Origin: Amanita rubescens
Taxonomy: Eukaryota > Basidiomycota > Agaricomycetes > Agaricales > Amanitaceae
Reading direction: 5' to 3'
Assembly: GCA_015039365.1 (NCBI GenBank)
Contig: WION01000182.1
Location: 1 to 64,000, forward strand
DNA length: 64,000 nucleotides
Both the position numbers and the translations under genes were made by a program. Positions 1,084 to 52,710 of this stretch are shown here, one piece after another (the first letter of the stretch is position 1; every line of letters starts with the position of its first letter). The notes below the pieces were generated by a model. The model had not been told where the DNA came from, made no database searches, and saw only the letters and a program-made list of their open reading frames with translations.

Positions 1084-2107
1084 TAGTGTTTTAAAGTCCG
1101 GTTTGGTCCGGTCTTTTTCCTATTTTGGCAAAGACCGGACCATGACCAGTTGTGACATTTATATAATTTTTGGCAACCGAAACCGAAACCGCATGCAACT
1201 GGTTGTGTCCGGTTGTGTCCACGGTTGCCTGCAGTTGCAACCGGTTTTTGATGGACCGGTTGTCAACCCATCCAAGACCGGTCACAACTGGTCACAACTG
1301 GTCTTGTACTGGTGTCATCCAAGTCTCCATCAGCGCATCCACCCCACCAATACCTCTCATCACACCATTAACCCTCAAATACATCTAAACATGCACCCAT
1401 GCACCCATCTAACCCATCATAATTAATAATTATATGTACTCCAACCCTTAGAATAATTTTAATGTAATTTTTCCATGACATATGTACTGTCAATGACATC
1501 CAAGTGTCCCAACCAACCAAAAAAATGTAAAAATACTCCGCTGATGATGATACTGTGATCGGCGGAGTTTTTTTCTATTTTTATCTAGGGCAACATCTTA
1601 CAACCAAAAAATACTCTGCTGATGATGGTACTGTGATTGGCGGAGCTTTTTCTATTTTATCAAGGGCAACATCTCACTGCTCACCCACCAATCCATCCAT
1701 AGACTGTAAAAATACTCCGCCTATGAAGGTATTGTGATCAGCGGAGCTTTTTTCTATTTTTATCATGGGTGACATCTGACTGCCCACCCACCAATCCATC
1801 CATAGACTGTAAAAATACTCCGCTGATGATGGTATTGTGATCAGCAGAGTTTTTTTCTATTTTTATCAAGGGTGACATCTGACTGCCCACCCACCAATCC
1901 ACCCCTCAACCCCTCTAAAAAGTTGCCACAAAAGACCGGTTGCAACCGGTCTTTAACCGGTTTTCAAAAACAGCCAGGGTGAGGCAACCGAAACCGAAAC
2001 TGGTTTCAATTGAAGGCAACCGCAACCGCGGTTCAGTTGCAACCGATCATCGGTCCGGTTCGGTTGCCGGTTTTTTTCCGGTCTGGCAACTGGACTTTTA
2101 AACACTA
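1084..2107. mobile_element. hAT-like non-autonomous element with tandem hairpins
   Basis: The ends are imperfect inverted repeats: TAGTGTTTTAAAGTCCGG at the left and, on the other strand at the right, TAGTGTTTAAAAGTCCAG. TAGNG termini are typical of hAT elements. Both subterminal regions (about 1,095-1,310 and 1,935-2,100) are filled with variants of ACCGGTC/GACCGGT in both orientations, probably transposase-binding repeats. The middle holds four tandem hairpin units (separate entry). No coding region is visible. The flanking 8-mers CCAGTATC and TTGGTTGG do not match, and the flanks belong to two different Ty3 families, so recombination between copies, not simple insertion, probably made this junction. 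Confidence 0.7.
1525..1895 (+). repeat. Four tandem hairpin units
   Basis: The unit is about 105 bp. Each contains a stem such as ACTCCGCTGAT (1,535-1,545) pairing with ATCGGCGGAGT (1,558-1,568) over a 12-nt loop, then a T-run and TTCTATTTTTAT. Further units lie near 1,610, 1,712 and 1,814. The stem changes between units while pairing is mostly kept. The same cassette occurs at 44,343-44,400 and three times at 60,355-60,640. Confidence 0.8.
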
Positions 2108-2914
2108 TTGGTTGGCAGTAGCCCAATTCTGTCATAACAATCAAGTACACTCGGCAACGGGATTCTCTCCCTTCTTCTTGAATAACGGATGAAATCCTAA
2201 CAAAGGACTTGAATTGACAATAGAACGGAAGGTGCAGGCGGTAGATGAATGGGTTGATCGACTGGTGGAAGCATGCGATCAAGCACGACGGGGACTGAAC
2301 AGAGCGGCAGAAAATATGCGAAAACAGTATGATAAAAAGAGACAACCAACACAGGATTATCGAACGGGAGATAAAGTATATATTAGTGCCCAAAACCTCC
2401 CTTCATTATGAGTGACAAAGAAGTTGGAAGGGAAGTTCGTAGGGCCTTACGAGGTGATAGAGAAAGTGGGATTAGCGGCTTATCGGGTTAAGATACCGGC
2501 ATCCTGGAAAATCTATAACGTCTTCAATGAAGTGTTATTGAAACCCCATACACCGGCCAAATTCCTGAAACAGAAGGCACAAGAAAGAGAATGGGATAGG
2601 AAGAAAGAAGAGGATCATACGAAAAGAGATGAGGAGTTTGAAGTAGAAGAAGTGATCGATAGTAGACAGAGGATGCAGAAAGGAAGTCGGATGGGGAGAT
2701 TGGAGTATTTAGTGAAATGGAGAGGATACCCAAATGAGGAGGCGACATGGGAACCGGCGGATAACCTCAAAAACGCCCATCGCAAGGTCCAGGCGTTTCA
2801 CAAGAAGAAGCCGAGTGCGCCGCGACCGCTAGCGATGCCTGCCAAGTTTTTCCAGAGGTATCACAACTATACCGATCCGCCAGTCCACCAACAACTATTT
2901 GGATGGGAAGATGG
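2108..2914 (+). pseudogene. Ty3 family C pol: integrase C-terminus and chromodomain
   Basis: This is the 3' part of a Ty3/chromovirus polyprotein. It begins inside the integrase (GWQ-like start, then WLAVAQFCHNN and HSATGFSPFFLNNG), continues through the integrase C-terminal module (GPYEVIEKVG, YRVKIPASW) and reaches a chromodomain with YLVKWRGYPNEEATWEP. Two in-frame TGA codons break it. One is after FFLNNG (TGG to TGA is plausible) and one is after NLPSL, where relatives usually have Arg (CGA to TGA). The last codons at 2,911-2,914 are interrupted by the LTR element at 2,915-10,816, and the frame resumes at 10,817. The 5' part of pol is missing, replaced by the hAT-like element. Chromodomain integrases target integration to modified histones; this copy is dead. 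Confidence 0.85.
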
Positions 2915-3210
2915 TGTAAAGTGGTTAAGATGATAGTGGTTATTCCTTATACAAACACCCGTTGCGCCAACAGTGTGCACTGGACCAAGATATATTCTTG
3001 AGACGTGCTATGTAGCGTAGGTGGGTAAAGTATAGGATGATTATGTAATGTGTCAATGCGTGAATATACAGTCACGCGTGACTTCAACTATATACAGTAT
3101 ATCTATGGGAGTTGTCCACAGCTCCCCGGTCTTCAGGCTTGGAGATCCTCTGGATCTCCGACATCATGAATATCCATATGGCTTCAGGCAGCTCTTGTAG
3201 CTACCTTACA
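2915..3210 (-). repeat. 3' LTR of element Y
   Basis: 296 bp, TG...CA (TGTAAAGTGG ... CTACCTTACA on the plus strand). It appears identical to 10,521-10,816. It contains a 14-bp perfect palindrome, AGTCACGCGTGACT (3,070-3,083), and an 8-bp hairpin at 3,141-3,159 (GGAGATCC, loop TCT, GGATCTCC). Confidence 0.95.
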
Positions 3211-3221
3211 CTCTCCCCCAC
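3211..3221 (-). promoter_or_regulatory. Polypurine tract of element Y
   Basis: On the minus strand this reads GTGGGGGAGAG directly against the LTR. This is the expected position and composition of the plus-strand primer of an LTR element. The other end of the internal region (10,505-10,520) is a much weaker candidate, which sets the element's orientation. Confidence 0.65.
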
Positions 3222-5700
3222 AAGATCATGTAATGATCTTAAATTGAAACAAAGATGCTAACGAAAATTCGGGCTTGAGGACATCATTTCATCTTGAGAA
3301 AATTCCCCAAGGTGATGGTGTAGGCCTCACATCCTCCCCCACTTGCCACAAGTTACGGGGCAAGGGTAGAAATTGAGGGGGAAAATATTTCCGTGCAAAA
3401 TTCAATGTAGGGGCACCATTTTCCATGGAGAGACAGTAAATCGTCATAGGAATTTACTTCTTCTATCCTCGGAGGTGTAGAGTAGTTATAGGCGCTTGTT
3501 CCTTTCGAAAGCGAACATTTCCGACGTGATGTGAGTGAGAACGAGTCTTCTGAACGTTTGACGAGGGTGCGCGTCGAAATTCGACGTTCCTTCCATGTTT
3601 GGAAGTTCGTGACTGGGTGTGACCGACCAGAATTCGAGAGAGAGGTTGCAGGCATTCTCAAGTGGCGTAGATGGGATTTCGACTCGTGAAGAGATGCCTT
3701 TGTATATAGACTTCACTCAGAGCAAGTTTGAAGTCTAGACATCGAAACGGTGGGTCGGTGTGAACGTTTGAAGCTTGGGCGCGTCAGCGTCGGTGTGACT
3801 TCCGAATAAGGAAGGTCGCGGGTCGCCTGGGTCTTCATGGTCGTAGTGTGCTGTACTTCAGCACAAGGTTGAGGGGGGTGTTGGGAGCTTCCCAATGTGA
3901 ACTTCTGGCAGCATCCAGCTGCCTGAGTGAGGTCCGAGCCTCACTAGATTGGGACGTGACGCGCGCGTCGGGATCTTGATGAGCCTTCCAGATTTGGAAG
4001 GTCGGTGGTCATGTGACACGCGCGACTTGTGCGTCAAGTCTGTTTATCGCTAGGGCTACCCAGCGATAACGATGAGAAGGGGAGCTCCTATCGACTGGAG
4101 CTCATCAAACAATATGGTGACGGCTACAAGAGCCATCTGGATCCCTTCTGCGCAGTAGAGAGGCAGGGAGAACGAGAGAGAGAGAAGGGGGGATGACAGC
4201 ATGTGGTTAAGAGGACGAGGTAAGTTCCTCGTTTCTTTCTTCTTCTTTCTTGCGACTGACTGACGTCGATGGTCGTGTTAGGAACTGTACGATGTCAACG
4301 TAATCGGGTACCGCGGTGGGAGGTGTGGATAAGATGGTATAGGCGCAATCTCGGGAACCACTCAATGGTGAGCAGTTGGGTGAATTCTCCCCCACAGCGC
4401 CTGTCCTGGGGAGAATGAGAGATGTTCTCGATACCAGGCGAGTACCCGGCATCGTTCTTGTTGAAACGGCTGACACGCATCTGTATTAGACGCATACTTC
4501 GACTCGACAACGAGGATCCAGTCTTGCGTGTCTCAGCAGGATGGGGACGGGATCAGGAGATGCCCATGCGATGTTGTCGATGGACGGTGAAGCGCGGGAG
4601 TGCTGAGAAGGATACAGGTGGCGAGACAGGACGAGGATGAGGATTTGGGGCACGGTATGCTTTCCTCATCTTTCCTCTTCCGTATTCTCGCTGACTGTTT
4701 CTCGTAGCGTTGTCGTACAGGTGCGGTAGACCTTGAACGGACCGACGTGAATGGGAAAACTCAAAGCTAGGATGTTTATTGCGCCTTGGAGAGTTCATCG
4801 AAACTCTCCTGCGCCTTTGGAGATACTAGGATCGACTTTGATTCGTTCGCGAGTCTCTTCCCCACAGAAGGAAAAAAAAAAAAAAAATTCGGCGGAGATA
4901 GTTATTGGGATTCTCGGGATAGCTTCCCAAGAGTACAAGCATAGTAGGTAAGTCCTACTACGTTCGTGGTGGCGTCTTTGTTGACGACGTTGAACCAGCG
5001 CCTCGTATGTGCATTATCCGGGTAAGCGGCCCACGAAATTGATAGTGAGGAGGGAGCGGGATGATTTCGAGACTAGGTAAGTCTCGTCTTTCCTGCTTTC
5101 CATCCTCGTATTGGCAGTTTGAAGAAACCGGCGTGGTTTCTCGGGTAGACGGATTGAAAGGGAGGACTAGCACTGGACCTCAAGAGTGTTTCCAAGGCCT
5201 GGACAGTATGTCGGCCTCGAGGTTAGGACTTAGCGTCGACCTCTCATTCGTCAGCATTAACAAGTTGACCAAATAGGGAGTCGCAAGCACAGGAGAAAGG
5301 GATCGGGTAAAGGACGGAGACTATCACTTGCGTATGTCTCTTTTTCCTTTCGGCTCTCCTGTACCTCCACTAACTGCGGCATGCGCTAGACGTGGTTTTC
5401 CTGAATACGCGAGTGTCCAATGGGTAGGTCAGAAGACTCAATAGTATCTTCCGTAAGTTTTCCGAGATTTAGCTTAGCTTTCGGTTGGTTTATTATTTCT
5501 TAGCGAATCGCGATTGACTCGCCGAGTCCCTTCCCCTTCAAACGAAGAGGAGCAAATTAAGTGTTCGGAGACTCTGGTGTGTCTCCGTGGTTGTAATTGA
5601 TTAAGTTGATTAATTAAGTGAGTCGTTAACTCGGATATAGTCGTTTTGCTGATAAATATCTTCATAATTTACAGGATTTACAAGCTTGAGGGACTCGGAA
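3222..5700 (-). other. Element Y 3' region, no recognisable gene
   Basis: About 2.5 kb between the ORF stop and the 3' LTR. Only ORFs of about 100 codons or less are present on either strand and none shows a known domain. Several GTAAGT strings look like splice donors on the plus strand, but most sit in hairpin loops (for example 4,215-4,232, 4,942-4,960 and 5,068-5,086), so I do not call introns. A 17-nt A-run lies near 4,869-4,886. Other perfect stems are at 3,222-3,240, 3,926-3,945, 4,044-4,069, 4,384-4,416, 4,788-4,809, 5,123-5,141 and 5,566-5,587. Confidence 0.7.
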
Positions 5701-8700
5701 TCACGGTGAAGCCAACACCGAACGACACGAACGAGAATATTGACAACGCGGAGATTCCGCGCAACGCTCGTGGGTCAGGGAGTGACCCGACTCAGTCGTT
5801 GTTTCGGCCTCAGGACCGGGATCATTTCCGAGTACGAAATTCATTGATTTGGGCGGCATCGTTTCCGCCCAGTGTAGATGTGAGTGATGTTCACTCATAA
5901 AGTTTGTTTTATTGACGACACTATAGTTTTGTCGTCTGTAGTTAACCGCTACGTCGGGCGGTTTATGACGGGTGCGCCAAATACGTTTGACGCACGTGGA
6001 ATCAGGAGTTTCCGCCCACCACGAAGGCTCGGGTGGAAGAGACGGTGGCGCGTTTGCTGCGGCCTTGGCGTCGACATAGGGATAAGAAGGAGGGGCTGAA
6101 GTGGGAGTCTTGTCGTCCTCGTGGATGATTGTGTACTCCGTCTCTTCAGCCTCGCGATTGTGGATTGCGCGGAAGGTAATGGCACTGAAGACCCACATCA
6201 TTCTCAACGACGTGCCAAGACTACAGCCAAGGTCAAAAGCGACGACTTGGCTAGCGCGTTTGAGTATAGGCGGTGTGAGCACCACCACGGGTTGAGGTGA
6301 GTACGCAGCGGCACTTGGGTTGAATAACTGGCTGATGACATTACAGGGATATCGTCGGAGCGAAAAGGACCAGTCGAGTTCGTTACTCGATTGCTTTGAA
6401 GATCCGACCAGTTGACGCAACGCACTATTCAAAATGTCTAGGATTTGTCGTTGGGATGAATCAAGACAGTCGGGGACACAGCCCAACTGTGTGGGGTGTT
6501 GGACCAGCTGATGCGATTCGAAGGAGATGTCCTTCAGCTGGTGTGGTGAAACGGCCTGCGTAGGAAGGGTAGCCATATGCGTGAGTGGAGCGAGGGCCAT
6601 ACAAGGACCAGGTGAGTGCAAGTTGCTACTCATTTCCTCGTTATTGAAAACATATGGGCCTCGTAGTCGCGTTTCTTCCTCGTTGGACAGCGCTAGGTCT
6701 TGAGGGGTGTCTTCAACACGTTCCTCGACGTTGACGGACTCCGGGAGTCTTTCCGCACGACTTTCCGAGACCTCAACATGGGAGATTCCCAATGTAGACT
6801 CAGGATGGTGCGAGACCGGGTTTGAACAAGTGGTAGAGAGCCCAATGGCTCTTGGGACGTAGAGCTGCTGAGGAGCAGCTTCGGGCTGAACCGGAGAGGA
6901 TTCGGGTTCTTCAGGTTCAAGCCTTGGTGAGCATGAGTCCACGCTCGCCTCTGTTTCTTTTCTAATAACAGACAGGGCTTGTCGTAGGGATGCGAACTCA
7001 GCTTCCGACTTATCGGGTGGACCCTTAGAAGCACGACGAACATTTCCGTCGTAATCAAGTGAGCGTCTGCGTTTGCGTTCTTGAACGTACGCTGCAGCGC
7101 TCGCTAAATGCCTTCCTTCTGAAACTTCAGAAGGATAGTTGTTGGGGTTAGACTGCCTTCGAACAGTCTGGGAGTTCCGTGAGTATACCTTACTCACTGT
7201 TGTTCTGTCATTGACAACATTTAGGCCATGTTGTCTAGATACTGCCTCAATAGGTGGCCTGTCCTCGTCTAGTGGGTGACGAGGAGCCTCTGCTTGGACG
7301 GAAGAGGTAGCGGGAGCAGGGACGGATGGCATGGACGCTACCGAGGCATTAGGTGAGGACATTTCCTCACTTATGTGCTGTATATTAACGACGGTGGTGT
7401 CGTAGATCCGCCGTTTCTCCCCCAATTCGATTGAAAGTAAAGAAGATTGGACCCGTATGTTAGAAGGTCCAGGAATTGACGTAGAGCGTTCGATTACGCT
7501 CTCTTTTGACGTTTCGAGAGGCGCAGGTGCGTTCCTCTCGACTTCAACAGTTCTTTTGAGCTGTTGCGGCTTTCTCGCAGAGGGAGCGAGTAAATTCTTA
7601 CCAGCCCGCACGTTTAAGGCTGGCTCAGGGACTCTAGAACGGACTTCATTCTTTTGGTGAGTGACTTTACTCACTACCAGTTTCTTGTTCGTAACGTGAA
7701 CCTCACGTCGTTTAGAAACACGAGGAGGTGAACGGATTAGCTCATTTTGGAGCTGTGAAGAGGGGATGGCCGGTGTAGGGGAGACTGGCGAAGGTTTTGG
7801 CACCAAGGAAGTTTCCTTGGCAAAGGGCATGTATTCTGTCCGACTTGCTAGCTTTCTTGTACTGACCGCTGTGTCTCCAATTCGAGACTTCGATTCGGAC
7901 ACAGTAGCAACTGTTCTGCTAGGTAGAACCTTCGGGATCCGACAAACGGAGTCGTTGAGGATAGAGGAGCGTCGAACTGTACGCTCCTGAACGTGTACCA
8001 CGGCTTTCACATGTGGTCTTCCTTCCGACACTTCGGAAGGAGTTTTCAAGAGTTCGGACTGCTTACGAGCGGTCCTAGGGTACGGTGAGTATACTTTACT
8101 CACTCTTGATGGCTTTGAGCTGCTAACGATGTTTGGATCATATTGTTGTGATACCACCTTAGCAGATGATTCATCCTCGTCTGCGGGTTCACCAGAGGGT
8201 TCGGCTTGAACAGAGAGGACGGGAAGGATGACGGGATTGGGAGCTGACAGTGTAGGGACTGCCACGTCATCAGTTGAGGAGGCTTCCTCACTTCCTCGAT
8301 GTGTACTGACAATGTCATAGTTACGTTGTCTCGGTAACACCTCAATAGGTGTTGTAACCTTGGGAGACCGACGAGGAGAAGTACCACGAGTAGGAGGGAC
8401 AGGTGAGGATCGGACTTCCTCGTCTACGTTGTCGTATATATTGACAATGTTCAGGCTGCATCGTCTCGATACCACCTCAGCCGGTGGTGAAGCCTCATCT
8501 GGAGATTGACGAGTAGGCATGTTACGTGCAGGGAGAGCAGGTGAGGAAACTTCCTCATCTTCGTTATTGTGTATACTAACGATGTTTAGGCTACATCGTA
8601 ATACTGGTACCACCTCAAAGGGTGGTAGTATAAGTCCGTTTGAAGGTGCGCGAGCAGGTGCAGTTGGGAATGCGGGAACAGTAGAGGCAACAGAAGAGGG

Positions 8701-10395
8701 GACTAGCGACGTGGAGTCTTCCGGGACCAGTGAGGATACTTCCTCACTTTCGACATTCTGTATACTGACAACGGCATCGCAAACTTGCCGTTTCTCCCCC
8801 ATTTCACCAGAAAAGGAAGAAATATAGCCGGGCGCGCTCACGAATCCAAGAGCATCAGGCGAGCGCGCGGGTATGTGCTCATTTGAGATTTCGGGAAGTA
8901 AGGGTGAGCTCCCCTCTACTTCTATAATTTGTTCGAGTTGAACTACCTCTCGTACAGCGGGAGGTTCGCTGATTGCTGACTTTGTGGTGACGACACGATC
9001 GCATCGTTTAGGAAGCCACGAAGGCGCGAGGGTTAGCTCATGTTTGAGCTGAGCTGAAGGATTGGCCCGTATAGAGGTGACGGGCAAAGATTCAGACAGC
9101 GAGAGGGCTGTCTCGGTTGAAGGTGCGTATTTGACTGCGCTCTCTTGTTCCTTCGTGCTAACCAACTTATATCCAATTCGAGACTTCGATTTGGACTCAG
9201 CGCGAGGGATAGGAGCACAACGTGCGACGGCGGCGACAACTTGATACTTTGACGAAGATCCGACAACTCTCGTACTTTTGTCTGGAAGTTTCCGGACAAA
9301 CACGGAGGGTTCCAACATTGGCGGCGGTATACGCTTATCACGCGTATTGGATTTCCGAGACGGTGTATGAGAGACGGACAATTCCGTCTTCTTAGACGAT
9401 TCCGAGGGAAGTTTCCCTCGTGAATCTAAACCACGAGCTATTGCTGGCTCGTTGGGCTTACTCGGTGAATTCCTTTGGAGTTCACGAGATGCGGGAGTGA
9501 GGTCCGGCTTCAACGAGCTCGGACGCTCTTGAGTACGAGTGACTTGAACTCGTCTCGGGGTATCTGGAGACTCAAGGGCCGAGTCTCTCTTTCCAGCATC
9601 GTACTTGACTCGTGGAGAGTCGTGTTTGCGTGGAACGGTTGAAGGACGGGGCTTGTCCTCCATAGGGAGAAGGGTGGTCCTACTCGGAGTTGAGACAGGA
9701 CGTGTTGGCGTTGACGCACTTCGGACGCGTTCTCGCTTGTCTACAGTCGTCTTTGAGATGATTCCGGGACTCTTCCTCGTTGTCTCGGCGGTTGCCAATA
9801 GTGGTGACAGCTTGTTACCGGGGTCTTGAGTCGGAGGTTGGCTATCCGAGTGGGTAAGGTCGTGAGTGAGCTGAATGCGTACACGTGAATCCCAGATTTC
9901 AGCAAGCTTCAGGAATGGCTTGGGTAACGTGTCCGAGGCATAAGAACCATTATGCAAGCATAGGTACGCGTTGCGGAAGTTGAGTTGAACGACGCGTGAA
10001 TGCTCGTTGAGTCTGAAGTGAGACTTCAAGTATGTCGCGATGAACACGTCAAACTCAGTTGCGTGATCGGATATGAGTTGAGAACACTGAAGATAATGTT
10101 CTCGTTTATGAGCGGGGAAGACTTTCCGCCAGCTCTTAAGGGTACTGGATATTATTTCCAGTTCACGAGACAATGTTGAGCTGAAGTTCAACTGAACTTC
10201 ATTGCGTATTTGCTCACTACGAGCCTCAAGCTCGTAGTACTTAGTTTTCATTCGTTTTCGTGAGGAATGATACCTCCTCTCCTTCTCGGGAAGGAGCAAT
10301 GAGGAGGTTTCCTCAATTGCGAGATTCAAACTTTCCCGAGGGTTCGTTTCCCTCGGGATATCCAGTGGAGGCTTCTTGGAGCCTCCTGGGGCCAT
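5701..10395 (-). CDS. 1,564-aa orphan protein of LTR element Y
   Basis: One uninterrupted reading frame starting MAPGGSKKPPLDIPRE, just inside the 5' LTR, where a Gag would start. I do not recognise any family. Residues ~1-190 are compact and charged (KYYELEARSEQIRNEV, LISDHATEFDVFIATYLK, WDSRVRIQLTH) and could form a helical, Gag-like domain; this is inference. Residues ~200-1,200 are low-complexity, rich in Ser, Pro, Arg and Glu, with diverged internal repeats: copies of a SLNIVSIHNNEDEEVSSP-type unit, and a larger module seen twice (VSKVYSPYPRTARKQSE and VSKVYSRNSQTVRRQSN, each followed by PSEVSEGR and VQER). A hydrophobic stretch lies near residues 1,384-1,410 and a PPSY motif near 1,435. 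There are no catalytic or zinc-knuckle motifs. The open frame over 4.7 kb and the young insertion suggest the protein was under selection until recently. Confidence 0.8.
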   Translation of the reverse strand: MAPGGSKKPPLDIPRETNPRESLNLAIEETSSLLLPEKERRYHSSRKRMKTKYYELEARSEQIRNEVQLNFSSTLSRELEIISSTLKSWRKVFPAHKREHYLQCSQLISDHATEFDVFIATYLKSHFRLNEHSRVVQLNFRNAYLCLHNGSYASDTLPKPFLKLAEIWDSRVRIQLTHDLTHSDSQPPTQDPGNKLSPLLATAETTRKSPGIISKTTVDKRERVRSASTPTRPVSTPSRTTLLPMEDKPRPSTVPRKHDSPRVKYDAGKRDSALESPDTPRRVQVTRTQERPSSLKPDLTPASRELQRNSPSKPNEPAIARGLDSRGKLPSESSKKTELSVSHTPSRKSNTRDKRIPPPMLEPSVFVRKLPDKSTRVVGSSSKYQVVAAVARCAPIPRAESKSKSRIGYKLVSTKEQESAVKYAPSTETALSLSESLPVTSIRANPSAQLKHELTLAPSWLPKRCDRVVTTKSAISEPPAVREVVQLEQIIEVEGSSPLLPEISNEHIPARSPDALGFVSAPGYISSFSGEMGEKRQVCDAVVSIQNVESEEVSSLVPEDSTSLVPSSVASTVPAFPTAPARAPSNGLILPPFEVVPVLRCSLNIVSIHNNEDEEVSSPALPARNMPTRQSPDEASPPAEVVSRRCSLNIVNIYDNVDEEVRSSPVPPTRGTSPRRSPKVTTPIEVLPRQRNYDIVSTHRGSEEASSTDDVAVPTLSAPNPVILPVLSVQAEPSGEPADEDESSAKVVSQQYDPNIVSSSKPSRVSKVYSPYPRTARKQSELLKTPSEVSEGRPHVKAVVHVQERTVRRSSILNDSVCRIPKVLPSRTVATVSESKSRIGDTAVSTRKLASRTEYMPFAKETSLVPKPSPVSPTPAIPSSQLQNELIRSPPRVSKRREVHVTNKKLVVSKVTHQKNEVRSRVPEPALNVRAGKNLLAPSARKPQQLKRTVEVERNAPAPLETSKESVIERSTSIPGPSNIRVQSSLLSIELGEKRRIYDTTVVNIQHISEEMSSPNASVASMPSVPAPATSSVQAEAPRHPLDEDRPPIEAVSRQHGLNVVNDRTTVSKVYSRNSQTVRRQSNPNNYPSEVSEGRHLASAAAYVQERKRRRSLDYDGNVRRASKGPPDKSEAEFASLRQALSVIRKETEASVDSCSPRLEPEEPESSPVQPEAAPQQLYVPRAIGLSTTCSNPVSHHPESTLGISHVEVSESRAERLPESVNVEERVEDTPQDLALSNEEETRLRGPYVFNNEEMSSNLHSPGPCMALAPLTHMATLPTQAVSPHQLKDISFESHQLVQHPTQLGCVPDCLDSSQRQILDILNSALRQLVGSSKQSSNELDWSFSLRRYPCNVISQLFNPSAAAYSPQPVVVLTPPILKRASQVVAFDLGCSLGTSLRMMWVFSAITFRAIHNREAEETEYTIIHEDDKTPTSAPPSYPYVDAKAAANAPPSLPPEPSWWAETPDSTCVKRIWRTRHKPPDVAVNYRRQNYSVVNKTNFMSEHHSHLHWAETMPPKSMNFVLGNDPGPEAETTTESGHSLTHERCAESPRCQYSRSCRSVLASP

Positions 10396-10520
10396 TAGGG
10401 TGATTCGGGTTCGCTCTATGTGGGTGTAGAACGAGTGGGTGTTGATCTTGAATATATTTGATGTTCAGCTTTCAAGTTTGAAAGCTATGAGGCACGTCTG
10501 CACAGGGTAGTGCAAAAAAG

Positions 10521-10816
10521 TGTAAAGTGGTTAAGATGATAGTGGTTATTCCTTATACAAACACCCGTTGCGCCAACAGTGTGCACTGGACCAAGATATA
10601 TTCTTGAGACGTGCTATGTAGCGTAGGTGGGTAAAGTATAGGATGATTATGTAATGTGTCAATGCGTGAATATACAGTCACGCGTGACTTCAACTATATA
10701 CAGTATATCTATGGGAGTTGTCCACAGCTCCCCGGTCTTCAGGCTTGGAGATCCTCTGGATCTCCGACATCATGAATATCCATATGGCTTCAGGCAGCTC
10801 TTGTAGCTACCTTACA
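10521..10816 (-). repeat. 5' LTR of element Y
   Basis: 296 bp, by eye identical to 2,915-3,210, followed by the target duplication GATGG. On the minus strand it precedes a 125-bp leader (10,396-10,520). That leader contains the hairpins 10,467-10,486 (AGCTTTCAA, loop GT, TTGAAAGCT) and 10,499-10,514. No tRNA primer-binding site is evident; self-priming is possible, as in some fungal Ty3 elements. Confidence 0.95.
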
Positions 10817-10939
10817 GATGGAAAGTTTGACGAAGGGTATCTGAAGAACATGAATAAGAAGTGGGCTGAGTGGAAACATATGCGGAAGATGGCGGACGAG
10901 GATGATGATTCTCGGGACGAGAATCTTGAAGAGGGGTGA
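10817..10939 (+). pseudogene. Ty3 family C pol: last codons after element Y
   Basis: This continues the interrupted integrase frame. FGWEDG before the insertion joins KFDEGYLKNMNKKWAEW here and ends at a TGA just before the LTR, after an acidic tail (DEDDDSRDENLEEG). The duplicated GATGG is the target site. Together with 2,108-2,914 it forms the pol 3' end. A purine-rich tract (GAAGAGGGG) immediately precedes the LTR at 10,940. Confidence 0.9.
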
Positions 10940-11198
10940 TGTAACGGTCAAGATTTCATTTACATTTCATTTCATTTTCTTTTCTTTTAGTTACAAGAAG
11001 TTCCCACACTTACCTAAGGATTCCGCAGAACGATGGCATGGGAGTGACGAGTCCGAGTATATATACCTGAACACTGTTTATGTGTCCCTTAGTCTTATGA
11101 TTGTTTCTGTCGTCCATAGACACAATCTTATTCTCATTTTCCATCCGCGTTTCTAGTCTTGAGTGTCCTAGTGGTTGTGTCGGGATCACCTCCTAACA
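10940..11198 (+). repeat. 3' LTR of Ty3 family C
   Basis: About 259 bp from TGTAACGGTC to CCTCCTAACA, directly after the pol stop and a purine tract. It contains TATATATA near 11,060 and a T-rich start. The 5' partner is not in the window, so the far boundary is taken from the TG...CA convention. Confidence 0.7.
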
Positions 11199-12130
11199 AT
11201 GATACAGAAACAGTGGCTGACAACTTGACATGTCAGGAAGAATGGGACATTCCACTTGATCTTGCCTGAGGATCCTCTGTTGAGACCCTCCCAATGTTTA
11301 TCTTTGTTATATGTGATTGCAAATCAAAAAAAGCGCCACAGGGAGATCTTGTTTTGGTGGAGATACAGCTGCTCATCATGGCAGACAGTGAGCACACCAA
11401 TTTCATATGTGACATGATTGGTACATACTATTTGTATTCTGACATGCCAAATACCTTCCTATATCCCTAATGGGGACATACCAAAAAAAGCGCCACAGAA
11501 ATAACCAGTATTGATGGAGATATTGTCATTTGTTGCTCCTCACTGTTGACAACAGTGAGCAAGACATGTTGCATTCTGACAGAAACCACTCGCATTTTTT
11601 ACATTCTAACATAGTGGATAGGTGCATATACATATAAGGAATATGTTCCAAAAAACGCGCCACAAAAACATTCAGTATTAAGGGAGATATTGTGATTTCT
11701 TTTTGCTCATCATGACCAACAGTGAGCAGATATGTCCCAAAATGGCAAGTCCGAAGTACGCTATTTCCATTTTTGGAAATGCGCCACTGGATCCTAAAGT
11801 GCACATTACATTATCAATTTCCTTTTTTAGAAATTTGACCCTGAAAAACAATTGGTGAATATCTCAATGAAATCATCACCAAATATTGTCATACAACCAC
11901 ATTTAGAAAGCCACTGACCAAGGCTACACAATTGAGATTATGTCATCATTTCCTTTTTAGGAAGTTTGACCCTGAAAATCAGTGGATATCTCAATGAAAT
12001 CAGCACCAAACACTGTCATACAACCACATTTAGAAAGCCACTGACCAAGGCTACACAATTGATTGACCCTGAAATTACATAAGCATTTCCTTTTTAGGAA
12101 GTTCGACCCTGAAAACAAGCGTGGGAATTT
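11199..12130 (+). repeat. Modular GCGCCAC repeat (single arm) plus 130-bp tandem repeat
   Basis: Related to the right arm of the inverted repeat at 46-47.3 kb. A motif AAAAAAGCGCCACAG, or a variant, begins modules near 11,326, 11,483, 11,650 and 11,778. Modules carry GCTCAC...GTGAGC mini-palindromes (for example 11,540-11,565). From 11,817 to about 12,120 a unit of about 130 bp (TTTCCTTTTTAGGAAGTTTGACCC, ending in AAGGCTACACAATTGA) is repeated roughly 2.3 times. No coding capacity was seen. The family C LTR lies directly at its left edge. Confidence 0.7.
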
Positions 12131-12588
12131 GGCCTTGCACTTGCTGCCACTATTACTTATTCCAATTTGGTTACCTTATTTGGAATCTGGATATCTTACT
12201 AAATAAGGAAATTATCTACTTGTGATTGCATTCCCATGTCATAATATGTACAAACACTCTCCCCCTCCTTCCAGAAATGGCAATAGAGCCTAGGTGTGGG
12301 AAAATGGACTTAGAACCTCAAACAGGGTTAACATATTGAGCACAATATCCAATGCAGCCCATTAGCTCAATATCTGCCTCTAACTAGGCCCGGACACTTG
12401 CGTGATGTCCAGCTCTAATTAGAATGTTTTGATGGGCTGATCAGGTGAGTAAAGTTTGTCTAAAGTTATATATAACATGTGAATTTTGAAAACATCTGTT
12501 GTTGCAACACTCCAGGTAAGGTATTCTGAAATTAACTAATCTAGGTATGCTCTAGTACATCCAATGGAACATAGTTGAATAGTGGGAG
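12131..12588. other. AT-rich stretch, no gene seen
   Basis: No ORF of note. It contains an inverted ATTCCAA...TTTGGAAT near 12,150-12,190. The phrase TTTTGATGGGCTGATCAGG near 12,427 recurs near 33,581, so part of it is repetitive. Confidence 0.5.
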
Positions 12589-12900
12589 GGTGAGGGTCAG
12601 CAACACTGGGCTTCATTCTCTCTTTGGTGATCTCTTTGGCAATCTCTTTGGCAATGTTTGGCAGTCTCCTGGCATCATTAAAAATGGTTTAATGTGGTTA
12701 TCTGGAGTGCAACTGGATGTGAGATGATGTGAGGGGGTGGAGTGGGGTCTAACGGGACAAGCTGAGCAGTGGGTGAGGGTCAGCAACACTGGGCTTCATT
12801 CTTTCTCTCTTTGGTGATCTCTTTGGCAATCTCTTTGGCAATGTTTGGCAGTCTCCTGGCATCATCAAAAATGGTTTTATGGAGTGCAGCTGGGTGTGAG
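12589..12900 (+). repeat. Direct repeat, two ~100-bp copies
   Basis: A segment beginning GTGAGGGTCAGCAACACTGG occurs at 12,589-12,686 and again at 12,772-12,874, about 183 bp apart and nearly identical. Inside it, TCTCTTTGGCAA is itself repeated. Function unknown. Confidence 0.75.
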
Positions 12901-13004
12901 AGGGTGTGAGAGGGTGAGGGTTAGGAACATATTGATATTTATGAAGTTTTGTAGTTTTAAATTGTTGTATGGGAGACACAGGGACATAGAAACTAATGTA
13001 AGGA

Positions 13005-13193
13005 TTGGTCTAGACCAGGACCAGTCCTGGACCGGTCTTAACCGGTCTTTTTTTTAAATTAAGACCGGTCTTGCAGTCTTAAGCAGTCCAGTTCCGGTCT
13101 TTTCAATATCAGGGACACCCTGAGACCGGTCCAGCTTCAGTCTTTCCAAAAAAGGAAAAAAAACCAGACTGGACTGGACCTTGAATCACTAAC
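13005..13193. mobile_element. Fragment of a hAT-like element (GACCGGT type)
   Basis: Dense ACCGGTC/GACCGGT-type motifs in both orientations. The right edge reads, on the minus strand, TAGTGATTCAAGGTCCAGTC, a TAGNG terminus. A matching left terminus is not clear. It abuts a broken Ty3 reverse transcriptase. Confidence 0.5.
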
Positions 13194-14298
13194 CGTTATG
13201 CTTTTTGGATATGCAATTCACTGTCAACATTCCAAACCATGATGAACAAATACTTCCAAGATATGATAGCTGAAGGATGGCTAGTCATTTATATTGACGA
13301 CATGTTGATTTATGGAACAAGTGAAGAAGAAACAAGGGAGCACACTAAACAAGTATTACAATGGCTAAAAGAAAATGATCTGTTCCTGAAACTGGAAAAA
13401 TGCGAATTTGTTGCCAAGGAAGTCAGGTTCCTTGGGATGATTGTCAAAGAAGGAAAGATCATGATGGACCCCATAAAACTCACTGGAATCAGCAAATGGC
13501 CTGAACCAAAAACCATTAAACAAATTCAGTCATTTCTAGGATTTGTGAATTTTTACAGGAAATTTATAGGAAATTATGCTGAAATAGTGGCTCCACTCAT
13601 GGAACTCATGAAGAAATCAGTTGTTTTCCAATGGGATGCAGAGTGTCAAAAAGCATTTGACACATTGAAGGAGAAATTCCTAGAAGAACTAGTTCTAGTC
13701 ATGCCAGATCTGATGAAACTGTTTTTATTAGAGACCAATGCATCAAATTGGGCGGTAGGTGCCATCCTGAAACAACAGGGATCTGATGGAGAACTGCACC
13801 CATGCGGATATATGTATTAGTCATCAGTTAAGTGATACTGAACAGAGATATCAAGTCTATGATTGCAAGTTATTAGCAATAAAGAAAGCATTCGAAACCT
13901 GGAAACACCTTCTTAAAGGAAGTCCGCACACGATAGTGATCCATTGTGATCGCAAGAATTTATCATATTACATACAAACATCCACAGAAAATGACCACCA
14001 GACAATCACGTTGGTGGCAGGAGATTACTGAATTTGATATCAAGTTGGAACATATCCGCCTGGATCAAAACTTATTCAGGCAGACTCTTTATTGAGATGC
14101 CCTGACCATATTTATGAAGAAGAAGCAAAAGCGAAGGAAATTCCGCAAACCATGATCACAAAAGACATGGTTATCACCGCAATCTACACGTCATGGGCAG
14201 ACAAAATCACCAAACTATTACCAGAAGATAAGTTCACAAACATCATCATTAACAGTCTTGAACACGGAAAACTACCAATCCGATCGAAGTTTAATGAC
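13194..14298 (+). pseudogene. Ty3 reverse transcriptase / RNase H fragment
   Basis: It starts within the palm domain (NSLSTFQTMMNKYF) and contains the catalytic YIDD box (LVIYIDDMLIYGTS), then the thumb (FLGFVNFYRKFIGNY) and the RNase H start (LLETNASNWAVGAILKQ, where the usual TDAS is TNAS, a lost Asp). RNase H continues in other frames (TEQRYQVYDCKLLAIKKAF, IHCDRKNLSYY) through stops and frameshifts up to MRCPDHIYEEEAK. The N-terminal part of pol and the integrase are absent; both sides are bounded by hAT-like pieces. It may derive from the same family as 2,108-2,914, but no overlap allows a test. Confidence 0.88.
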
Positions 14299-14490
14299 TA
14301 GTGTTTACAGGTCAGGTCACGGTGACTGGAAAATAACCGTAACCAGACTGAACTGCTACCGGTTATGACTGGACCATCGGTCATGGTTTTATGGTTGGTG
14401 CTTGGTTTCAGTTACGGTCATAGCCAATGTCCACTTTGTGTAACCAGTGGGTAACTGGTTATGACCAGTCATAACTGAAAACTTATGCCA
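14299..14490. mobile_element. Left end of a hAT-type MITE (AACTGGTTATGACCAGTT type)
   Basis: It begins TAGTGTTTACAGGTCAGGTCA, nearly identical to the first bases of the complete element at 60,004-61,513, and carries the same iterated CAGTTA/TAACTG motifs. The other terminus is not seen, so the copy is truncated near 14,490. Confidence 0.75.
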
Positions 14491-14589
14491 CAATAACTTA
14501 TACTAGTATTAGCATTTGTGTTAGTAGGGAATAAAGTGTATTGATATTTAAATAATACATAGACGTGATCTATATAATGGGTACTATGG

Positions 14590-14690
14590 TAGGTCCAGGT
14601 AGTGGTGGTGGAAATGACCTCATTGGAGGCTGCTGGTGAGCGCATGGTGGTGGAAATGGCCTCGTGGGAGGTCACTCCCAGTGAGAAATG
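14590..14690. repeat. Outlying copies of the 16-kb minisatellite unit
   Basis: Two units of the form GGTGGTGGAAATGACCTCATTGG...GGTGAGCGCATGG, the same family as the cluster at 16,087-16,460. Confidence 0.6.
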
Positions 14691-16086
14691 GAGCAGTGGC
14701 CAGCCGCAGGAAACCTCTGGCATCTGGCATAGCCTACTGCCAGCCACGTGCAGCTCCGTGACCTTTTCCTCTTACCTACCTCGTCGTCACCCAACCGCTC
14801 CCAGCTGCAGCACGCCTTCTTCGTACTTTTCACATGTGCTTTCAGCTTAGAAAATTTGATGAACTCGACATGTTTGCGTCTGGGATGCCAAGTCGAAATC
14901 AGCCAAATTAAATCAACTCCCCTTTCTCTCCACCCACCATGTGCTCATCCTATCATCTTCACCTTCCAAACCAACTCCAGAGCTATTAGCACCAAGGATC
15001 TCTACAACCCTCACACGACACAATGACGACACGATTCGGATGCTTTGACACCCCGCACGCGCTCTCTATCTGTCTATCTTGTCCAGCTGCCTATTCTTCC
15101 ACAGATTCTCTGCACAATCATGTGTAACTCGCCAGGGCTATCCAGTTGCCTCTTATGGACAACGAGGACGAGGAAGAACCAAATAGGAGCGACGTCGAAC
15201 CCTTGATTCTGATACGGCCCAGGCCGCCCAGCTGGACAATGTGGCTATTGTGGCACTCAGCCGCACACATATAGCCGTTCAGGTTCAGGTATAGCTCCAG
15301 GACCTGGGAATCCCCCACATAACGCTTCATTGAGGAGCACCAGCACTTCCATCATGTTAACAGGAGGCAGCGCAGACGATGACGAGCTTGTGGGCTTAGA
15401 TGGGTCCGTATATGCGTGCCCCGGTGAAGTTTGAACTGACTGTTGACCTCAGTTCTCGGAAGCTCATATGCTGAACACCAACATCAATGGGCATATCATA
15501 TCGTGCCCAGAGGATGGTCCCGTAAGTATGTGGTCACTCCCGCACGGAAATCAGCAGGTGCCAGGTCCATGAAAATCGGTCCAAGAATTGTCGCCTCTTT
15601 CTCCACCCCTTACTTATCCGTGGCGGAACAGGCCTCAAAGAAGCGTAATGCAGCACTTAAGGTGTCTCAAAGACTTAAAGTGTGCTCAAGAAGGGAAGGA
15701 TAGTTTCTCGGCGCTGAGCAAGAACTATTCAAGGCCACAGTGGCCACAGAGTGTCGTTGTCGACGTTTGAAAGGTTTGTGTTTCATTACAGTGGAAGGTG
15801 ATGAAAATGGTGGATGAGGAAGGTCACTAGAGGATGAGAGTGGTAGGAGGAGGATGGGAGTGGCGGAGGGGAATGAGGAACTGGAGAGGAAATCGGGAGC
15901 AGTTGAATGAGGATGAATGCGGTTTTTAACAGTTTGTAGCGGATAGAAAATGAGCAATAAAAATTCGTGTTTCTCCAACTTTTTGTTGAGTGCGGATATC
16001 CTCAAAACCAGACACTTTGGTGGATGGCAGCCTCACGAAGCCACGGTTGTGGCCAGGAGCGGCCACATTTCTCACTGGGGGTCACT
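14691..16086. other. No confident gene; possible degraded gene at 15.1-15.8 kb
   Basis: This stretch is less AT-rich than its surroundings. A plus-strand patch near 15,155-15,260 (LDNVAIVALSRTHIAVQVQ in one frame) and another near 15,580-15,770 (RCLKDLKCAQEGKDSFSALS) look vaguely protein-like but are in different frames with stops between. I recognise no domain. Confidence 0.35.
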
Positions 16087-16465
16087 GGTGGGTGCAGTGG
16101 TAGAAGCAACCTCGTTGGAGGTTGTTGGAGGCCGTTAGAGGCCGTTGGTGAGCAAAGGATGTGGGGTGGTGGGCGCAATCGCAAAACGACCTCATTGGAG
16201 GCCACTGGTGAGTGCAAAAGGTGATGTGGTGGTGGTGGAAACAACTTTGAGGGCACAGGTCACTGGTGGTGGAATCAACTTCATTGGAGGTCGTTAGTGG
16301 GCACAGGAGGCGAATGTAGTGGAAACGACTTTGTTGGGGGCCACTGGTGAGCAAAGGGTGTAGGTGGTGGGCATAACGGGGAAAACAACCTCGTTGGAGG
16401 TTGTTGGTGGGCATGGGAGGAAGCATGGTGGAAATGACCTTGTTGGAGGCCATTGGTGAGTAGGG
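16087..16465. repeat. Minisatellite (~60-bp unit)
   Basis: About seven imperfect units of GGTGGAAACGACCTCGTTGGAGGCCACTGGTGAGC type. Unit length varies (roughly 50-65 bp) and some units lack parts. It reads open in several frames for that reason only. Confidence 0.75.
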
Positions 16466-16595
16466 ATCAGCAGGGGTAATACTTATTGGGTTCTGGATGA
16501 TTTGTCATGCTCAGGTTGTTGGCAATGCCAGTTGCCAACAACTCTAACCCCTGAAACATATGGGGACTATGAGGAGTTGAAGTGGTAGAAAGCAC

Positions 16596-16792
16596 ACCTG
16601 GCCTGTTTGGTTCTATTTACTACCTATCCCATCAGGTGTGAGTTTAGGTGTCCACTATATCGTGTTTTGTCCAGACACAACCGCTACACCTATAAACTAG
16701 CTCATTATACACAAAATAAAGAATATAGTATTGTAAGACTAAATATAAAGCATTTGAGCGATATCTGATGTTTAATCACTCAATATTCAACA
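16596..16792 (-). repeat. Copia 3' LTR, truncated (LTR a)
   Basis: Matches the inner half of the ~375-bp copia LTR family (coding orientation TGTTGAATATTG ... TTTTTAACA). On the minus strand a polypurine tract GGGGGAAG (16,793-16,800) directly precedes it, so it is the 3' LTR of the copia element whose pol lies at 16,800-19,590. The distal part is missing. Confidence 0.8.
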
Positions 16793-39888: not shown

Positions 39889-40319
39889 GGGGGGAGTGTA
39901 AAGTACTGTCATTATCGCAGTTGACTTCAATCTCCAATTCTTGCCCCAGTCTATCCCATGGGTCCAACTCAGCAAGTTCTTGAAGAGGTTATGAAAAACT
40001 GGGCCATCAAGAGGATCTGTGGATTTCCAAGTGCACAGACTGCAACATTTCCCCATTATGATGTTGCAAATCTTTCTCATTCATGGTGCTCAATAACAAC
40101 AGCCAAGGCTTGGAGAATTCAATGCACAGGAGGGAGGACACCTAGCACTCTGGGATTTGGGGATCTATACTGATTTTCTGGCTGGATCAACCATACTCAT
40201 TCCCTCATCTATCATGTTTTTGAGTGGGGAAAGAATGTGCATAATGAGGAATTTGGCAGATTTTCATTACTTTACACTACCCCCCAGTATGATAAGAGTC
40301 CTATAGGAAGGGATTCCTA
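39889..40319. other. Unassigned
   Basis: A 71-codon plus-strand frame (MGPTQQVLEEVMKNWAIKR) starts at 39,958 but has no recognisable domain and no supporting context. Confidence 0.3.
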
Positions 40320-40790
40320 GGGATATTCTGATAACAATCTTGAAAAATGCTAAAAATGTTCCCAAAGTAGATATTTGCATTTGTTTATGTTTGCTTGCAC
40401 AAAATAAACAATATGGGCATCATTTGACAGCATTTTTGGAGGGGCTGTGGATGGTTGTTTGGTATTGGTTGGTGTTATTTATGCTTGCAATAAAATCTCA
40501 AAAATACTTTTAAATGCAGAAAAATCCTGTGATCTAGGGCATGTAGGGATTTGGGGACCAAATAAAGCCAAACTTGAGATATTTGCAAAATACTTTTTTC
40601 AGGCACAAGTCTGAGAAAATTGACAAGTCTGCAAAAAAAAAATAATTAAAAATGCCAAAACTCATTTCACCAACAACATGCAAGAATTATGATAAGCCAA
40701 AGTGCTTTTTGTCTTCTGGTGTCACCATCACCATTCCATGTGCCATGACCACTTGTCACTTGCAGTGACTTGTGCAACAGTGAGTAATTG
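40320..40790 (+). repeat. Dispersed AT-rich repeat, family R1 (copy 1)
   Basis: From GATAACAATCTTGAAAAATG to TTGCAGTGACTTGTGCAA. It is repeated in the same orientation at 44,757-45,325, and parts recur at 57,690-58,090 and 58,440-58,700. Key shared phrases are ATGCTTGCAATAAAA, TTGAGATATTTGCAAAA and CACTTGCAGTGACTTGTGCA. Non-coding. Confidence 0.75.
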
Positions 40791-43700
40791 CTTCAGAGGT
40801 CAGTAGTGAATGTAGTCACCTATGGGTCAAGGCCAACATGATCAACTCTGCCTGCATGCCAAAAGTGGGCTCTGTGCAGTTGCAGTGTAGAGATTGCCAC
40901 TTAGTATGACTTACTGTAGATCCAGTGGTTGTGTCATGATCAATTTCCATAATGTGGCCACTGTTGTTGCTGGCAATAGTGGCCATCAATCACCTATGGC
41001 ATTGCAGAGAGTTGTCAGAGGTCATGCACAAATGTGAGAAGGTTGAGGTTATGAGGATTTGGTATTATGTACATATGTATTGAAGTCAAGTTTCAACTAG
41101 GGGAGGACTCAGAACTGGGAGCAGAGATGAGTTGTTGGTTATGTTGGTTAGTTATCTGGTGATCACATGGTGGTGAGTAGTTGTTAGCAGCATAATGACA
41201 GCCAGCCTACTAAACATCCACACTAAAAGCATGTGGCAAAGTAAACTCACATATATAACTCCATAATCAAGAGAACAATGACATACTGAATTAGTCAACC
41301 ATACATATAGTAAAATGAGTAAGTAGAAAAACAAGTGGGCCTGTCCAAGCATAATTTGGGAGTCCATACCATAAATAGATCAGTGACTTAATGGTGGCTG
41401 ACATGGTAATTGTCAACTTCCACCTCTCATCAATTGTCTACAATTTAGTAAACATGCCCAGTTAAATGGGAGAAACAACTAATTTGGAGGCTATGGGCCA
41501 CAAAGTGGCAAATCCAACTCAAGGACAACCAGGATTATGTGACTAGGATCAGAGCCATCACATGTTTCCTTTACTTCTCACAGCATGGTCCACCTTGCTT
41601 GCCACTGCAGTGGTGTTAAAGTTTTGTTAAAAACTCAGCCTCATTACATTTAACCTTGGAATAATAACTATGTATCTCAAAGTGAAGCTCATGTTCACAA
41701 GTATAGGCTATATAAATACATACCAGCAGTGTTGCCAGAGATACTAGTTTTCTCACAATTTAGGTGTCAAGTGGAAATGTGACAATGGCAAAGTGGCCAC
41801 TGATAATGCTGGCTTCTGCATAGCATTGGTTATATACATACATATATGTATGAGCCTAATCACATTGATTTTTCCACATATTTTATTTAAGACTTTTCAA
41901 ATTTAGTCTTGTTTGGCATGTTCATTCTTGCACATTTGAGAGGCCACAATTTTTTAGGCTTTTTTTGCAGATTGTTTGAGGCATGTCACAAACATGTCAC
42001 ACACCCCTGTCACACATGTCCATTCTCAAACATCCCAACAAATGTGGTGAAACAAGCTGCATATTGTCCATTTTCCACCAAACATACAAACAAATATAAG
42101 CAAACACAAATATTAGCATTACATAATTTTGGGGTATTTTTCAACATTTTTTTAGATTTTTAGGAGGGTTTTGGTGCTTTCAGCACTGTTTCTGGAGGTA
42201 TGTAAACATCAGAAGTGGAACCCACGGCACCTACCACTTTCAAATATATGTAAATATATACAAACAAGCTCAAAATAGCAATACTACATGTTAATGTAGT
42301 CCTATTAACTCCTATTAAAGTCCAATAACTCCAATAGGACTCTCATTGGAATGAAGTAGGATTTATCAGCCAAAATGGCTGACAACCATATGTATTGGAA
42401 TCCATTTCCATCCTTATCCTTATGATGGGTGAATCATGTATAATACCAGCACCATCATGTCAACTGGGATGTGTTCTTGGGTGAATTGAAATACCAGAAA
42501 TTGGTGCACAAACTGTAGCAGCTTGCTATTGGGAACAGTAGATTTACTTTGCTGAATCCAATTGAAAAGAGATACAATAAGATTCTAAGCTTCTCATCCT
42601 CAATATCATGGCATAGCCATCTAAGGGGAAGAGCAGCAATGCAGGAGATTATTTGGATATATTATGCCACAGTAGTTAGTAACCAACATCAGCAAACCCA
42701 CAAAAAATACCAGAAAATTCATATTATTGGCAGAGATTTTATAACATACAAATATAGTAAAAGAAAAGCATGTGAAAACATTAACATATGATAAAGGATA
42801 ACATGTGAAAAAGAATGTGAATATGGGGGGAGAGTCCCCATGAGGTGTTCCCAGGGCAGGGGGCAGAGCTACATATGCCCAGTTGTAAAACATCATTTAA
42901 AGGGAATATACATGTATGTATAGGCATTTGAAAGCTCTCTTCTTGCTTGTTTTGATCCTGATGATCTACTGTTTGTACATGTAGTACACATCTAAAAATA
43001 GGCTTGTAATTAATGTATATGCATCTGAAAGCTATTTTCTTACTTGTTTCAACCATGATGGTTATTTGTCATTGTTTGTACTTGTATTGCATATTGTAAG
43101 AATACTCTCCAATGATGAATTGATGATGGAAACATCATGAGAACAAGACATAGATGGGTAAGCTTAATAACTACACATTTGCATGGTTACTTGCCTCCAC
43201 CTTGTAAGACCTCCTAGTCTCCACTACCATCACTACCCTTTCAAACTCCCTTGCCTTATACTATTCATCAGGACCTCTGTGTGAGCACTGGTAGAGAGAT
43301 ACATATGATAGAATATAATTTTTTTTGCATGCCAATACCATGTCATTGTAAGGGCCATTTTATAAATGTTTGCAAACAAAAGAAAGTGCCAAAGAGAGCC
43401 TTCTAAGAGTTGCAAGGGTAGCACCAAAGAGAGTGCATCAATCAAATGCAGGGAACCCTGGACTGTGTTGATGCTTGACTAGAGAATGCAAGGATTGTGA
43501 GAGCAAATAATATGGAGCTGAAGCACAACACTGGTGTAAGCATATACCAAGCCAAGCAAAAGGAGGTAAGAATGGTGATCTCACTTTCCCACTAGATCAT
43601 CATAAAGAGCTTGCTGATACTCTCCTAACTGGAGGTGCAGCACCTTTAGTACCCCTACCAGGAGCTCCCAAGATTGGGGCTTCCATTGAAAAGAGAGTGC

Positions 43701-44069
43701 CCAAAGAGATGTGAATTCTAAAGTAGCCGAGTCACGAGGTGTATGTAGAATGTAGTCTACACAGGTGAAGTGAGGTGGCTGTGCTCCACCTCTTCTTCCT
43801 AGCCACTTCCTAGCCACCTTGCTGCCCAGTCAGTTCCAGATAGTGTCTCCACTATCCTCATTCTATTGCTTTAGATCCCTTTCATTCTAGACAACTACAT
43901 GCATAATTTCACATGTTTCACTACCTGTATCCAATGAACAACAATAACCCATACATAGCATATTGAATGTCAGCTAGAGCCACAGTTTCTTCATCATTAA
44001 TTTCTACTAATGTTGTCAATGTCAAATCCTATAAAGATAGGAGTACTTTACACATTGCCACTGATTGCA
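40791..44069. other. AT-rich gene-poor region
   Basis: About 3.3 kb without a credible ORF on either strand. It contains short iterated CCTATTAA/CCAATAGG motifs at 42,295-42,370 and palindromic ATGTATATACAT-like strings. Presumably old, unclassified repeats. Confidence 0.5.
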
Positions 44070-44345: not shown

Positions 44346-44400
44346 ATACTCTGCCCATTGCAGTGTTGCGATGAGCAGAGTATTTTTCTATTTTTTTGAG
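44343..44400 (+). repeat. Single hairpin cassette unit
   Basis: AAAATACTCTGC...GCAGAGTATTTT forms a perfect 12-bp stem over a loop of about 17 nt, followed by CTATTTTTTT. It is the same cassette as 1,525-1,895 and 60,355-60,640. Confidence 0.75.
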
Positions 44401-50914: not shown

Positions 50915-50930
50915 CTAGCTCTCCCCTATG

Positions 50931-52666: not shown

Positions 52667-52710
52667 TTTGCATAGTTATGTGGTGTGTGAATGATGTTTC
52701 AAAGTTTCCT

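Follow-up and report, generated by a model that had tools for sequence, protein, structure and literature searches.

An LTR retroelement family of Amanita rubescens is saturated with short hairpins, probably through selection on the folding of its transcript

Element Y, an LTR element of Amanita rubescens, carries a large excess of short perfect hairpins along its whole length. The excess recurs throughout its family and in a distant relative, the two arms of the hairpins change in a coupled manner, and the loops evolve faster and the stems more slowly. Y probably represents a non-autonomous LTR family whose transcript has been selected to fold into short local stem-loops over its full length, in a manner resembling the genome-scale ordered RNA structure (GORS) of some RNA viruses, with escape from silencing as the inferred gain.

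Y lies at 2915-10816 of the window, the whole 64,000-nucleotide stretch of contig WION01000182.1 that was analysed, and its features are listed in Table 1. The two LTRs are 296 bp each, 100% identical and have TG..CA ends, and a 5-bp target-site duplication, GATGG, flanks the element on both sides. The polypurine tract on the minus strand, GTGGGGGAGAG, is common to other elements. Inspection by eye of the region 3' of the 5' LTR showed no TGG-type tRNA primer-binding site. The only ORF of at least 200 aa is that at 5701-10395, for which a Pfam search gave no match, and the pol functions of an autonomous element (protease, reverse transcriptase and integrase) were not found among the Y ORFs of at least 200 aa. 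Since reverse transcriptase was not found, Y looks like a non-autonomous LTR retrotransposon on the minus strand. The N-terminus of the family ORF is helical and conserved, and the dN/dS of the ORF is 0.56-0.66 among intact copies. The PDB fold matches of this N-terminus were generic coiled coils only. Non-autonomous LTR retrotransposons of plants, TR-GAG among them, have LTRs and one ORF in the gag position and are devoid of pol. Y is like them in its LTRs, its single gag-position ORF and the lack of a detected pol; it differs in its fungal host, its hairpin saturation and an ORF with no Pfam Gag match. By eye, the frame 2412-2933, which runs up to the left LTR, resembles an integrase end and a chromodomain, so that Y is seemingly nested in a Ty3-type element. 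Elsewhere in the window, an 841-nt stretch (243-1083) recurs inverted 50 kb away at 51639-52479 with 87% identity, and 1-192 and 52533-52724 likewise form an inverted repeat pair (86%).

Table 1. Coordinates in the window of element Y, its borders and individual hairpins.
Feature	Position	Strand	Basis
Target-site duplication GATGG, left copy	2910..2914	.	sequence
3' LTR, minus-strand reading; same as the other LTR; includes hairpin 3141-3159	2915..3210	-	
Polypurine tract GTGGGGGAGAG, adjoining the 3' LTR	3211..3221	-	
Hairpin-rich non-coding 3' part	3222..5700	-	12 vs 1.1 hairpins in 3211-5700
1564-aa ORF in gag position, hairpin-rich, without Pfam match	5701..10395	-	
5' LTR, minus-strand reading	10521..10816	-	
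Target-site duplication GATGG, right copy	10817..10821	.	sequence
Hairpin, 8 bp, loop 3, in LTR; second copy at 10747-10765	3141..3159		
Hairpin, 8 bp, loop 3	3222..3240		
Hairpin, 10 bp, loop 2, longest of Y	7114..7135		
Hairpin, 9 bp, loop 4	8020..8041		
Hairpin, 9 bp, loop 2, absent from the earlier note's list	10182..10201		
Hairpin, 9 bp, loop 7	10334..10358		
Hairpin, 9 bp, loop 2, in 5' leader ahead of the ORF	10467..10486		

An earlier note, made by reading the window by eye, had claimed more than 30 hairpins in Y, where about five would be expected by chance, and had listed 18 of them. All 18 positions are perfect inverted repeats with stems of at least 7 bp; two of the listed stems are longer than had been given (10 bp at 7114-7135 and 9 bp at 8020-8041). 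Counting perfect inverted repeats with a stem of at least 7 and a loop of 2-12 gave 46 hairpins in Y compared to 4.35 ± 2.06 (maximum 11) in 100 dinucleotide shuffles, a stronger excess than had been claimed. For stems of at least 8 the counts were 18 compared to 1.03, and for stems of at least 9 they were 6 compared to 0.27. Hairpins had been said to run through coding and non-coding parts alike, and this was also observed: the ORF has 31 compared to 3.8 ± 1.9 (maximum 9) in 300 synonymous-codon shuffles, and the non-coding part at 3211-5700 has 12 compared to 1.1. The density is well above both the dinucleotide and the synonymous-codon shuffles; dinucleotide- and codon-preserving shuffles were the check that the note had proposed. 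The hairpins are spread evenly along Y and are not clustered at its ends. In six copies, the strong excess is a feature of short-loop inverted repeats alone, reaching some tenfold or higher for loops of 2-8 and fading almost to the expected level by 17-24. Mirror and complement repeats occur at about chance, and direct repeats are enriched to a lesser degree. Even loop lengths outnumber odd ones in Y (29/17), in the family copy L037 (40/24) and in L050 (35/20), a locus of the second family described below.

In the 75.7 Mb of the surveyed A. rubescens genome (786 contigs), twelve long copies were examined, namely Y, L031-L039, L042, which is truncated at the end of a contig, and L045. All twelve are hairpin-rich, with 38-64 hairpins each compared to 3-8 in shuffles. 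Pairwise identity among seven aligned long copies is 75-90%. The ORF is open over at least 1394 aa in Y, L031, L032, L033, L034, L037 and L038 and broken in L035, L036, L039 and L045; L038 and L039 bear nested insertions. At L040, L041, L043 and L044 only ~0.4-3 kb of the element is present. For L033, identity to Y is 97% across 4.1 kb and 77% across 3.0 kb, and for L032 it is 98% in one part and 76-91% elsewhere; such mosaic copies are what would be expected from recombination between subfamilies.

The junction of LTR end and polypurine tract was found with at most one mismatch at 60 places in the genome, compared to 2 for a reversed control, and 15 of the 60 belong to the Y family. Seven places outside the family were fetched (L046-L052), five with the exact pattern and two with one mismatch. 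Two of these loci, L049 and L050, constitute a second family, whose protein aligns piecewise to the Y ORF at ~26-35% identity (best E 5e-18); nucleotide similarity to Y is limited to short stretches of up to 79 nt. Both are hairpin-rich (L050, 59 compared to 4.9; L049, 45 compared to 5.2), and two ORFs of L050 have 19 compared to 2.5 and 11 compared to 1.9 hairpins in synonymous shuffles. A search with P0008, one of the relatives P0008-P0012, as the query revealed no relative in viral contigs. Another of the fetched loci, L052 (7501 bases), is a Ty3/Gypsy element with matches to protease, reverse transcriptase, RNase H and integrase zinc-binding domains. Its junction is nearly identical to that of Y and its hairpin excess is milder (21 compared to 3.9; 7 compared to 1.4 in the reverse transcriptase frame, synonymous shuffles). 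In contrast to Y, in which no pol was found, L052 encodes pol functions. The shared junction suggests that Y may be mobilised by a helper of the Ty3 type, for which L052 represents a candidate class.

The neighbours of Y had been described as unlike it. This holds for the LINE, which is at chance (5 compared to 3.5), and does not hold for the other regions, which show a milder excess. Within the window, the counts were 18 compared to 4.2 at 10817-16600, 23 compared to 7.7 at 40001-48000, 10 compared to 3.5 at 50000-56000 and 26 compared to 6.0 at 56001-64000; everything to the right of Y has 110 hairpins compared to 34. Among sequences beside or within the copies, the Copia part of L044 has 2 compared to 3.8, the Ty3 part of L043 has 7 compared to 3.0, the remainders of L040 and L041 have 9 compared to 5.8 and 3 compared to 2.6, and the nested insertions in L038 and L039 have 9 compared to 2.1, 4 compared to 0.5 and 3 compared to 0.8. 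Further junction loci gave 14 compared to 5.8 (L046), 10 compared to 5.8 (L047), 6 compared to 0.4 in 663 bases (L048) and 10 compared to 3.6 (L051). A total of 45 hairpins compared to 11.0 was counted in eleven 1.4-kb pieces situated to the left of LTR matches, and the nine that remain without one Y-family and one partly second-family piece have 24 compared to 8.9. In this background, which is made up of the window, stretches beside copies and other elements rather than a random genome sample, most sequence shows a 1-5x excess, the LINE and Copia are at chance and a small number of short pieces have high counts. A mild excess is thus frequent in the sequence examined, and a roughly tenfold saturation across 8 kb was observed only in the Y family and in the second, distantly related family. 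The window also has a second dense cluster at 60158-61653 (16 compared to 1.3 in 60001-62000), with a 15-bp stem at 61378-61415; part of this cluster is a tandem array (60778-60994).

Predicted RNA folding of Y in 200-nt windows gave a mean z of -2.46 for the sense and -1.89 for the antisense strand, compared to 0.0 for the LINE. In 350-nt fragments of six elements, the folding-energy excess was 21.1-24.9% sense and 11.4-16.5% antisense, and hairpins of at least 6 bp account for 0.66-0.77 of the sense excess. In 240-nt fragments, the excess was 23.7% for both Y and L050, 10.7% for L052, again milder, and -1.1% for L051. The LINE (-5.1%) and Copia (L044, nested, 1300-8000; -13.3%) fold less than their shuffles in such fragments, the opposite of Y. 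Over synonymous shuffles, the Y ORF has an excess of 22.7%. Among the values that we draw from a viral folding-energy survey, SARS-CoV-2 is at ~15%, HCV at 7.5-10.7%, unstructured viruses at 1.1% and the highest at 23.4% (PMC7642675). The Y-type excess is level with this highest value, a comparison of size that is approximate as the shuffling methods of the survey and of this study differ slightly.

The alignment of other copies and the search for compensatory changes that the earlier note had called for revealed a large excess of pair-restoring double changes. In eight aligned copies (Y, L032-L037 and L045), each perfect hairpin was compared to its own surroundings, and the stem and loop comparison was limited to hairpins with ungapped stems and at least 60 background sites. 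Over six bins of background divergence (0.007, 0.037, 0.093, 0.158, 0.248 and 0.409), the ratio of stem to background divergence was 0.81, 0.53, 0.42, 0.39, 0.47 and 0.73, a ratio that carries a selection bias from choosing hairpins as perfect in one copy. Its fall from 0.81 in the youngest bin is expected if selection purges changes over time. Loop divergence (0.005, 0.020, 0.106, 0.188, 0.268 and 0.442) is close to the background in every bin except the second. Double changes numbered 0, 9, 33, 43, 211 and 535, compared to 0.1, 0.8, 3.7, 12.9, 61.5 and 324 if the two arms changed independently at the stem rate. Of the observed doubles, 0, 6, 33, 31, 156 and 278 were Watson-Crick; these counts cover every ordered copy pair and are hence non-independent. 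At fourfold sites, 123 of 1008 positions differ in stems compared to 837 of 4961 outside (ten pairs of five intact copies), and stem divergence was lower in all ten pairs, one of them near-equal (0.126 and 0.128). An ancestor that was perfect at one time and then decayed neutrally would likewise account for a ratio of ~0.5, but not for the pair-restoring doubles. Collectively, loops near the background rate, stems at about half of it, mostly pair-restoring doubles and more conserved stem fourfold sites support selection on pairing, which the earlier note had offered as one of two explanations.

These patterns resemble those of GORS. In the parts of the GORS literature used here (PMC7642675, PMC7566573), folding energy exceeds dinucleotide shuffles throughout, coding sequence included, with many consecutive stem-loops, and Y is alike, with an excess throughout six elements and structure all through the coding sequence. 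The viral survey, in the portion drawn on here, describes sites of single change as equally common at paired and unpaired positions and repeated changes as avoiding paired sites (PMC7642675); in Y, too, young changes hit paired about as often as unpaired sites and older ones avoid paired sites. Y differs in that short perfect stems give most of the signal and G-U pairs are not favoured, and in being a fungal LTR retroelement, not a positive-strand RNA virus. Because Y is an LTR element, we describe it as working like GORS rather than as a member. A nearer comparison by element type is Ty1 of yeast, also an LTR-retrotransposon RNA, whose fold was probed where that of Y is predicted. According to the sections of the Ty1 study used here, nuclear Ty1 RNA is less structured and has 11 well-structured regions (~19%), and these sections describe no element-wide saturation (PMC9503155). 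A search of the open literature, with subscription journals outside its scope, found nothing on a Y-type element or on hairpin-saturated LTR elements.

The folding molecule would be the element RNA, both genomic RNA and mRNA. A compact transcript would be a poor pairing partner for antisense or small RNAs and may thereby escape silencing; it would perhaps also aid packaging. We think that silencing escape would be the likeliest benefit and packaging its main rival, because the constraint is diffuse, has no common motif and extends over coding and non-coding parts. If packaging were the cause, either the protein encoded by the ORF of the element or the Gag of a helper would bind the hairpins as many weak sites, and the RNA would be concentrated and packaged in this way. 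The single gag-position ORF with its conserved helical N-terminus and the presence of hairpins all along the RNA are consistent with this. In contrast, classical packaging signals would be expected to have a common loop motif or regular spacing, whereas no such motif was found in 189 distinct hairpins from seven copies and the spacing is irregular (gap CV 1.16 compared to 0.99 ± 0.09 at random), and we regard packaging as a fairly unlikely cause.

The second explanation in the earlier note was a copying mechanism, in which fold-back or template switching of reverse transcription in near-palindromes copies one arm to the other, and no benefit is needed. Mismatches are strand-symmetric, neighbouring pairs changed jointly in some lineages and other LTR sequence has a mild hairpin excess, all of which such copying would accommodate. 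Arm copying alone predicts stems that diverge at the background rate with many doubles, but the observed stem rate is 0.4-0.5 of the background. When a pair-state model was fitted without the lowest and highest bins, to the four in between, the -lnL values were 7656 for neutral change, 7108 for arm copying and 6377 for selection, so that arm copying fits far worse, by ~730 log units. In addition, the LINE and Copia are likewise reverse-transcribed and have no excess. As the sole cause, arm copying is therefore unlikely. In two bins, 33 and 156 pair-restoring doubles were seen compared to 8.5 and 120 expected under the selection model, and because the model falls short here, a share of arm copying on top of selection is possible.

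If selection on pairing is at work, the strand on which it acts bears on a further alternative, a DNA-level role, in which the hairpins would serve a function such as strand transfer or inter-copy recombination, either in the single-stranded cDNA or in DNA that is double-stranded. G-U occurs in 123 and A-C in 172 of 884 pair columns, and the fitted costs are 1.47 for G-U, 1.32 for A-C and 2.63 for other mismatches. Pair-breaking polarised singletons comprise 49 G-U, 54 A-C and 58 other changes, and unpaired sites show a strand-symmetric mutation spectrum. One-mismatch hairpins in seven copies (28 G-U, 34 A-C and 38 other) gave no clear strand signal. Selection on the sense RNA only is disfavoured, since G-U would then be tolerated better than A-C, yet it is not. 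This symmetry of tolerated mismatches, together with the mosaic structure of the copies, would suit a DNA-level role. However, when hairpins of at least 6 bp were kept and the rest was shuffled, the leftover folding excess was greater on the sense strand in all six elements (104-173 kcal/mol compared to 39-70 antisense), and the even spread of hairpins, not gathered at the ends, also speaks against such a role, which we consider quite improbable. RNAalifold gave a z of -3.57 for sense and -2.42 for antisense, a strand comparison that base composition confounds and to which we give no weight. We lean towards folding on the sense strand or on both.

Protein motifs, internal repeats or base composition are scarcely credible as the source of the hairpins: some coding hairpins lie, by eye, on a recurrent EExSS motif and Y has diverged internal repeats, but no shuffle type reaches the observed count, which excludes such an origin for most of the hairpins, the non-coding part is equally enriched and the arms co-vary. 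Chance and composition are ruled out as the cause by dinucleotide, synonymous and codon-order shuffles, and a tandem-repeat scan found no array inside Y that could be the source.

Genome-wide RNA structure is known from RNA viruses, where its role is still debated. The fungal retroelement family adds an independent case in many copies, with an excess at the upper limit of the survey values. The same genome offers a less structured autonomous relative together with unstructured LINE and Copia controls, which makes the cause (silencing, packaging or copying) testable. We tentatively propose, as a real possibility, that a fungal LTR lineage has evolved one of the densest structured RNA genomes on record, that this is adaptive and probably anti-silencing, and that the density has been kept while the sequence turned over beyond nucleotide recognition. 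GORS would then not be confined to RNA viruses.
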